DNA from: Arenibacter sp. F20364
GTDB lineage: Bacteria; Bacteroidota; Bacteroidia; Flavobacteriales; Flavobacteriaceae
Direction: 5' to 3'
Assembly: GCF_023015905.1 (NCBI RefSeq)
Contig: NZ_JALKBD010000016.1
Location: forward strand, 1-64,000
Length of the DNA: 64,000 bases
A model generated the notes under the pieces. That model saw nothing but the letters and a program-made list of their open reading frames with translations, ran no database searches and was not told the origin of the DNA. A program made the position numbers and the translations under genes. Below are positions 61,098-62,638 of this stretch, piece by piece (positions within the stretch are counted from its first letter, which is position 1; every line of letters starts with the position of its first letter).

Positions 61098-61529
61098 TTA
61101 AAATACTTTTTGCATGTGGTAGCCTATCGCCTTAAATCCAAGATTGTTCCAAAACCGAATGCCTTTTTCATTTTGTATGTAGCAATTAAGTTCAGAGGCA
61201 TCGCACCCAATCTCAGCGGCATATTCAAAAACCTTATCCAACATTAATTTCCCAACGCCAGAACTTCTATATTCCGGCATCACAAAAACATTGTCCGGCT
61301 CCACATGTTTACCTACATATAATTTATTTAAAACCCAAACCCCACAAATTCCAATTAGTACTTCTCTATCATAAACTCCTAAACATTGGTATCCGTCACG
61401 GAGCATATCCTGCAATCTTTTTTTAAGAATTTCAACAGGAATTTTATAGTTGTTGAGCATTTGTACCAAAGGCAAAATTTCATTCATATTCTCCTTGGGA
61501 ACGAACTCTATTTGAAATATAGCAGTCAT
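61098..61529 (-). CDS. GNAT N-acetyltransferase within the his operon
   Basis: From the ATG at 61529 (143 residues, MTAIFQIEFVPKEN) the protein is a GNAT-fold acetyltransferase: motif A has DNVFVMPEYRSSGVGKLMLD with the acetyl-CoA loop, and ELNCYIQNEKGIRFWNNLGF forms the C-terminal strand. Longer frames to 61568 overlap hisG. It lies between hisG and hisD with spacings of 11 and 2 bases. Such a gene is not part of the standard pathway; the substrate is unknown. Confidence 0.88.
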   Translation of the reverse strand: MTAIFQIEFVPKENMNEILPLVQMLNNYKIPVEILKKRLQDMLRDGYQCLGVYDREVLIGICGVWVLNKLYVGKHVEPDNVFVMPEYRSSGVGKLMLDKVFEYAAEIGCDASELNCYIQNEKGIRFWNNLGFKAIGYHMQKVF

Positions 61530-61540
61530 TATAAAGAATA

Positions 61541-62398
61541 TTAGAGCACCATTTTTTCTATGGGGCAAACCAATATTCCTTCCGCTCCCGCTTTTTTGAG
61601 TTCTTGGATTACTTCCCAGAACTTATCTTTATTGATTACGGTATGTACGGAACTCCACCCTTCCTCTGCCAAAGGAAGAACGGTCGGACTCCTCATGCCG
61701 GGCAATAGTGCAATAATCTCGTTCAACCTTTCGTTGGGTGCGTTTAGAAGCACATACTTGGACTGTCTGGCACGCAATACGGACTGGATTCTAAACCTTA
61801 AGTCTTCCAACAAGGAGGTGCGTTCAGGAGAAATTTGTGGAGAAACCGCTAGTACGGCTTCACTGGTCAACATCACCTCAACTTCTTTCAAATTGTTCTT
61901 GAACAACGTACTGCCACTGGAAACAATATCACAAATGCCATCTGCCAGACCAATATTTGGGGCAATTTCTACAGAACCATTTATAATGTGAAGATCTGCC
62001 TTTACGCCCTTACTATCCAAATAATTTTTTACGGTATTGGGATACGAAGTGGCAATCCTTTTACCTTCAAAGTCGTTCACTGAATTGTACTTGACCGATT
62101 TTGGAATTGCAAGGGATACTTTGCATTTGGAAAATCCCAATTTTTCCGCAATGGAGATATCCTCACCTTTTTCTATTAGGACGTTTTCGCCAATAATGGC
62201 TATATCCACGACCCCATCCCTGAGATATTGGGGGATATCCCCATTTCTCAGATAAAAAACCTCTAACGGAAAATTTCTGGAAGAGGCCTTAAGTTGGTCT
62301 TTCCCATTGTCTATGGAAATACCACAGTCCTTTAATATTTGAAGTGAGTCTTCGTTTAAACGGCCACTTTTTTGGATCGCAATTCTAATTTTTTTCAT
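61541..62398 (-). CDS. hisG: ATP phosphoribosyltransferase HisG, long form
   Basis: The 285-residue protein is the long, self-regulating HisG type, with IAIQKSGRLNEDSLQIL, DIAIIGENVLIE, ISSGSTLFKNN-like phosphate loop (written here as DIVSSGSTLFKNN) and a C-terminal ACT-like domain (about 210-285) that binds histidine for feedback. It performs the first step of the pathway. It is preceded by an attenuator leader. Confidence 0.95.
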   Translation of the reverse strand: MKKIRIAIQKSGRLNEDSLQILKDCGISIDNGKDQLKASSRNFPLEVFYLRNGDIPQYLRDGVVDIAIIGENVLIEKGEDISIAEKLGFSKCKVSLAIPKSVKYNSVNDFEGKRIATSYPNTVKNYLDSKGVKADLHIINGSVEIAPNIGLADGICDIVSSGSTLFKNNLKEVEVMLTSEAVLAVSPQISPERTSLLEDLRFRIQSVLRARQSKYVLLNAPNERLNEIIALLPGMRSPTVLPLAEEGWSSVHTVINKDKFWEVIQELKKAGAEGILVCPIEKMVL

Positions 62399-62439: not shown

Positions 62440-62475
62440 TTAAATACAAAACCCGTTTGATTGCTCAAACGGGTT
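62440..62475 (-). terminator. Attenuator terminator of the his operon
   Basis: AACCCGTTTGA pairs with TCAAACGGGTT around a 4-base loop (62450-62475). On the minus strand TTTTGTATTT follows. It lies between the leader peptide stop and hisG, so it would end transcription early when the leader is translated freely. Confidence 0.85.
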
Positions 62476-62505
62476 AGAATATAGTTTAGATACAACAATA
62501 CATTC

Positions 62506-62562
62506 CTAGCTCGCTTGACTGCAAGTAAAGAAATGATGATGATGTGTCCTGTTGTTTTTCAT
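62506..62562 (-). CDS. hisL: His operon leader peptide
   Basis: An ATG-started, 18-residue frame reads MKNNRTHHHHFFTCSQAS, with four consecutive His codons (CAT x4), and ends in TAG. It lies about 30 bases upstream of the terminator hairpin and 108 bases upstream of hisG. This is the classical layout of a histidine attenuator: ribosome stalling at the His codons under low His-tRNA would prevent formation of the terminator. The frame is too short for standard gene calling. Confidence 0.88.
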   Translation of the reverse strand: MKNNRTHHHHFFTCSQAS

Positions 62563-62569
62563 GATATGG

Positions 62570-62577
62570 CAAAATTA
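62570..62577 (-). promoter_or_regulatory. Promoter -7 box of the his operon
   Basis: TAATTTTG on the minus strand matches TAnnTTTG exactly and is followed by only seven bases before the leader ATG. Transcription would begin about 1-4 bases upstream of the ATG, which makes the leader mRNA effectively leaderless. The -33 element is weak (TTTTC). Confidence 0.6.
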
Positions 62578-62638
62578 AAACTATTTTTCAACCTTGGAAA
62601 ATTTATACGGAACAATTTATTTTAAAATTGTTAAATTA

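Follow-up and report, generated by a model that had tools for sequence, protein, structure and literature searches.

A predicted ribosome-stalling attenuator with a near-leaderless leader peptide upstream of the Arenibacter his operon

The his operon of Arenibacter is very probably preceded by a classic leader-peptide, ribosome-stalling transcription attenuator, with a start of transcription predicted to lie almost at the start codon of the leader. From the sequence and from modelled folding, we put the probability of this interpretation at about 0.86. Evidence for stalling attenuation, already suggested in a preliminary description of this DNA, comes from the conserved His run, from the near-fixed antiterminator arm in the 3' end of the leader open reading frame and from folding of the RNA in different ribosome states. 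New here are the explicit architecture of the predicted element, its distribution, its near-fixed near-leaderless spacing and the apparent recurrence of this arrangement in the trp and ilv operons of Arenibacter.

Architecture of the his leader

All features described lie on the minus strand of the window, the whole stretch of 64,000 nucleotides that was analysed. The -7 promoter box, TAATTTTG (62570..62577), follows the consensus TAnnTTTG and precedes the leader ATG (62562-62560) by 7 nt. The leader open reading frame, MKNNRTHHHHFFTCSQAS, comprises 18 codons and a stop (62506..62562, with the stop ending at 62506), codons 7-10 being four His codons, CATCATCATCAT (62533..62544). An intrinsic terminator, recognised from sequence and alignment, occupies 62442..62475; its 11-bp stem, GCAA loop and T-rich tail are laid out as AACCCGTTTGA (62475-62465), gcaa, TCAAACGGGTT (62460-62450) and then TTGTATTT. 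It is followed by hisG (61541..62398, ATG at 62398), the first structural gene of the his operon. The leader with its four His codons, the terminator with its T-run, hisG and the box seven bases before the ATG had all been reported in the preliminary description and are confirmed, each where it had been placed. Two features of ribosome-mediated leader-peptide attenuators are thereby present, a short open reading frame rich in the amino acid of the pathway and an intrinsic terminator separating the leader from the first gene. Upon folding, the RNA from leader to hisG has an energy of -38.8 kcal/mol (z -3.59), beating 200 of 200 dinucleotide shuffles.

Upstream of the his promoter lies a gene that by eye is SPFH/prohibitin-like, and between the two an inverted repeat, AACAATTTTAAAATAAATTGTT (62611-62632), is possibly a weak terminator. 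Within the operon, an open reading frame at 61098-61568, by eye a GNAT-type acetyltransferase, separates hisG from the his gene that follows.

Conservation of the leader and terminator

The first set of relatives contained 110 best-match hisG loci, namely the best 30 of 45 from 60 genomes (the Arenibacter genome itself included) and the best 80 of 551 from further relatives, with some genomes present in both subsets. Among the relatives with a species name, those closest to the window belong to Arenibacter. All 110 loci have, upstream of hisG, an ATG open reading frame in which two or more His codons are adjacent, while the codons neighbouring the run vary. The longest run is 2, 3, 4 or 6 codons in 3, 63, 43 and 1 loci, respectively, so that 107 of 110 have at least three; the loss of the His run in close relatives, which by the preliminary description would have spoken against the attenuator, is not seen among these loci. 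A terminator is present by our rule in 108 of the 110.

A set of 60 more distant upstream regions was chosen by hand to sample genera across the order, class and phylum. Under a loose rule (at least three His codons), 52 of these have a leader open reading frame and eight do not; leader and terminator are both present by our rules in 40, with at least one of them lacking in 20. Some of the 52 open reading frames look like chance occurrences, so a phylum-wide spread of the his leader is likely, but its extent is not an exact count.

For the alignment, 46 sequences were hand-picked, and in these the terminator columns are paired in 99.2% of cells. In farther relatives the terminator sequence is wholly different and complementarity often still follows, for example in loci L129, L137, L146, L152 and L165.

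Promoter spacing and the start of transcription

Box spacing was counted in 100 distinct promoter and leader rows out of the first 110 best-match loci. In 87 of these, a TAnnTTT[G/A] box and the leader ATG that follows it are separated by 6-8 nt (gap of 7 in 70, 8 in 15 and 6 in 2), while the intervening bases vary. With 40 TAnnTTTG and 47 TAnnTTTA among the 87 near boxes, the box looks looser than the published TAnnTTTG consensus. The remaining 13 rows comprise four with a strict box 17-19 nt off (17, 19, 19 and 18 nt in L023, L030, L102 and L107) and nine without a strict box within 30 nt. Of these nine, L100, L106 and L108 show no clear box, whereas L024-L029 carry what by eye is an (A)TATTTG-like box at roughly 17-20 nt from the ATG. 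A near-leaderless leader as a general rule was rejected, given such genera of the Flavobacteriaceae with a box about 17-20 nt upstream. Outside the 110-locus set, the box was seen by eye 7-8 nt from the ATG in L137, L146 and L153, and likewise in L123 of the Flavobacteriaceae. On a tree of HisG with 96 rows, from which 14 near-duplicate loci had been removed by hand and for which nine labels were set by hand, the near label changes four times against a shuffled mean of 12.4, with many forks unresolved.

In promoters of F. psychrophilum the box occupies -12 to -5, according to main-text parts of PMC9723704, which places +1 at ATG-3 when the gap is 7. Of the 70 gap-7 rows, 68 have a pyrimidine at ATG-4 and 66 a purine at ATG-3. 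In Arenibacter, box spacing and this pyrimidine/purine pattern predict a start at 62565 and a 5' UTR of about 3 nt, AUC (62563..62565), supporting the 1-4 bases proposed in the preliminary description. A near-leaderless his leader is thus predicted, with support from promoter spacing and an initiator step. An A at -3 may also mirror Kozak-like initiation in Bacteroidota, which would leave the pyrimidine at -4 unexplained.

In a background sample of 34 ATG genes, chosen by eye from 69 open reading frames of the window, TAnnTTTG occurs within 90 nt in four, at 23, 29, 46 and 55 nt, and none is nearer. Leaderless mRNAs amount to 5.5% of 890 coding sequences with mapped starts in F. psychrophilum, where the median UTR is 24 (main-text parts of PMC9723704), and UTRs under 10 nt to about 3.7% in B. 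thetaiotaomicron (parts of PMC7366714).

Leaders of other amino-acid operons

In Arenibacter, the own genome and six congeners were compared for two further operons. The trpE leader (own sequence MRNMVSNTWWWSNLRKTS) has a box 7-8 nt before its ATG in 7 of 7 genomes, and the ilvD leader (own sequence MKINRNIINLVIIVP) one 4-5 nt before its ATG, also in 7 of 7. The own trpE upstream region (L172) resembles a Trp attenuator, with the leader 7 nt past TATATTTG and a terminator AAGGCTTGTC ATCAC GACAAGCCTT; judged by eye, TCGTGA, at the stop codon of the leader, is complementary to TCACGA, which lies in the loop and 3' arm of the terminator. In modelled folding this leader shows no clear switch, with values of 0.51-0.57 on the Trp codons, 0.45 at the stop and 0.52 for free RNA. 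The own ilvD upstream region (L192) resembles an Ile/Val attenuator, with the leader 5 nt past TAATTTTA, and in modelled folding it switches on codons 11-14 (0.77-0.78; 0.24 at the stop and 0.20 free). Upstream of the own pheA (L189), a Phe/Tyr-rich leader, MTKQYFWNGFYFYFFFKGGKGLF, is followed by a terminator and has by eye an ordinary short UTR; it is not near-leaderless, its degenerate box lying, by eye, about 19-20 nt upstream.

Across the family, 76 of 80 genomes were matched for trp, and in the best 30 of these 76 loci at least two adjacent Trp codons are present in all 30, with box-to-ATG gaps of 4 to 21 nt, within 8 nt in at least 11. For ilv, 58 of 80 genomes were matched; in the best 30 of the 58 loci the gaps are mixed, and strict near boxes are scarce outside Arenibacter.

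These observations bear on a different account, which we consider unlikely: the attenuator would exist, with its transcript initiated at a more upstream promoter or read through from the SPFH/prohibitin-like gene, so that the leader has an ordinary UTR. In the Arenibacter his promoter no convincing -33 element was seen at the expected distance, the TTG at 62591-62589 being just 11 nt from the -7 box, and the upstream co-directional gene is just 76 nt from the leader; both would suit an upstream start, as would the more distant boxes of other Flavobacteriaceae genera. Such a start would, however, leave unexplained why a spacing of 6-8 nt is kept despite variable spacer bases, why a pyrimidine-purine step occurs at exactly the start predicted from the box, and why the trp and ilv leaders of Arenibacter are similarly placed. 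Taken together, we favour the near-leaderless start.

Antiterminator and protector

The preliminary description named no antiterminator and proposed a search for one competing with 62450-62475. Inspection of the pairing revealed a candidate: UCAAGCG, in leader codons 15-17 (62512..62518), is complementary to CGUUUGA (62465..62471), which is part of the terminator 5' arm; both arms are placed by pairing and alignment. Among the 108 terminator-bearing loci of the first, best-match set, 104 can form at least 7 bp with the 5' side of the terminator, and in 101 the best pairing begins 12-14 nt past the His run. In the 46 aligned sequences the antiterminator columns are paired in 97.6% of cells, and a shift by 1-3 columns lowers this to 18.5-49.5%. 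Covariation is modest, with two pairs and five cells changed on both sides, a pair count that was matched by 45 of 500 shuffles.

Complementarity was also compared with mononucleotide shuffles in 24 representatives, hand-picked after the pairing had been inspected. It reaches p<0.05 in 17 of the 24, among them L001 and four near variants, and in 12 when the count is confined to the 19 that are not of the CCCGUUUGA/CCCGUCUGA type; in seven of the 24 it is no better than in the shuffles. When own and foreign terminators were ranked as partners, the own one came first in only 6 of 24.

A putative protector helix, P2, would be formed by CUUGC (62521..62525) and GCGAG (62510..62514), and is paired in 85.2% of cells of the 46 aligned sequences. 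A further helix, P1, between leader codons 3-8 and ATGTATTG after the stop codon, is long by eye in L024 and L028; across the whole set only 4 bp could be placed, paired in 88.6% of cells.

Folding in different ribosome states

Nascent folding was modelled with the ribosome-covered bases masked, reading out the pairing of the terminator 5' arm to upstream bases with a cut-off of >0.5. When the ribosome is placed on the final His codon, the mean is 0.76 and the cut-off is exceeded in 45 of 46 sequences, versus a mean of 0.09 and 0 of 46 with the ribosome at the stop codon. Ribosome-free RNA gives a mean of 0.46 (24 of 46), and shuffled spacers 0.31 (222 of 920). In the model, the stalled and finished ribosome states thus differ sharply, and the ribosome-free state is mixed; as 24 of the 46 ribosome-free sequences also pair the arm upstream, a role of the protector is not generally borne out.

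In full-length equilibrium folds the terminator is retained in every ribosome state for three of the four sequences tried (L001, L060 and L028), while L146 switches on two of its three His codons. A mutually exclusive antiterminator with a 5' arm that a ribosome can cover is therefore indicated by pairing and modelling only, the equilibrium folds being static in three of four, and antitermination would have to be kinetic, that is, governed by the order of synthesis. Known attenuators likewise depend on the order of synthesis.

We regard as very improbable a control without stalling, be it by a plain terminator or by a his-responsive switch of RNA or protein (e.g. a T-box or a repressor), beside which the His run is incidental. 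It would fit the dominance of the terminator at equilibrium in three of the four sequences, but no Rfam family, among which we take the T-box to be counted, matches anywhere in the window at the gathering threshold (0 matches), adjacent His codons persist in every best-match locus amid variable neighbours, and the antiterminator arm keeps its distance from them.

Proposed mechanism

In the attenuator that we propose, the transcript would begin some 3 nt ahead of the leader AUG, and a ribosome would load at the 5' end of the RNA upon its emergence. When charged tRNA-His is scarce, the ribosome would stall on codons 7-10, leaving UCAAGCG free to pair with newly made CGUUUGA; the terminator would then come too late, and hisG onward would be transcribed. 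With ample histidine, the ribosome would reach the stop codon and mask UCAAGCG, allowing the terminator to form. When no ribosome is present, the antiterminator may face competition from the protector hairpin; this is the least certain part of the scheme.

Bacteroidota mostly do without Shine-Dalgarno sequences, which raises the question of how a ribosome can be loaded in time to act on a terminator some 90 nt further on. Tentatively, having the leader AUG at the very 5' end of the RNA could be a selected design of amino-acid attenuators in part of the Flavobacteriaceae, kept for his in many genera and found also in trp and ilv of Arenibacter, but rare in ordinary genes; 5'-AUG loading upon emergence of the RNA would keep ribosome and polymerase in step, taking the place of the Shine-Dalgarno sequence and perhaps of a pause hairpin. 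The his leader, with its near-constant distance from the -7 box, and the similar trp and ilv leaders may serve as natural reporters for leaderless initiation and for transcription-translation timing in Bacteroidota.

Comparison with known systems

The Rfam His_leader family is the proteobacterial his operon attenuator of the E. coli/Salmonella type. The Arenibacter leader shares with it a His-run leader peptide, alternative antiterminator and terminator, and hisG as first gene. It differs in its short antiterminator core and, given the predicted 5' UTR of about 3 nt, in having no possible Shine-Dalgarno sequence. Membership of His_leader was rejected, with no covariance-model match at the gathering score in the window.

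In the Flavobacteriaceae, a conserved structured 5' element before hisG was reported from the F. psychrophilum map, and leader-peptide attenuation was suggested for amino-acid operons; gene and family are the same as here, and the main-text parts of that report contain no hisG leader sequence, antiterminator or start spacing (PMC9723704). Our search of mostly open-access main texts found no description of a Bacteroidota his leader sequence or near-leaderless start, including in parts of PMC4833913, PMC2965389, PMC4117421, PMC4046766 and PMC7366714; the word 'leader' is absent from the main text of PMC8305728, and 'leaderless' and 'transcription start site' are absent among the matches listed for start-site literature on the near-leaderless genera.

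The preliminary description regarded a leaderless leader as a notable variation for Bacteroidota. The arrangement does prove widespread in one part of the Flavobacteriaceae; it is neither general nor without precedent, given the attenuation suggested for Bacteroidota amino-acid operons (parts of PMC9723704) and the leaderless attenuator leaders of Sinorhizobium and Corynebacterium. In Sinorhizobium meliloti, the RNA of the trpL attenuator likewise starts at the ATG of the leader peptide, although this is a trp system of the Alphaproteobacteria with a 0-nt UTR (parts of PMC7298713). In Corynebacterium ilvB, according to parts of PMC5784534 and PMC11857589, the C. diphtheriae transcription start is at the leader start and is termed leaderless, and ilvBNC of C. 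glutamicum is treated as leaderless; here the likeness is in the start, whereas the operon is ilv, the phylum Actinobacteria, and in C. glutamicum a hairpin, H1, is proposed to block initiation.
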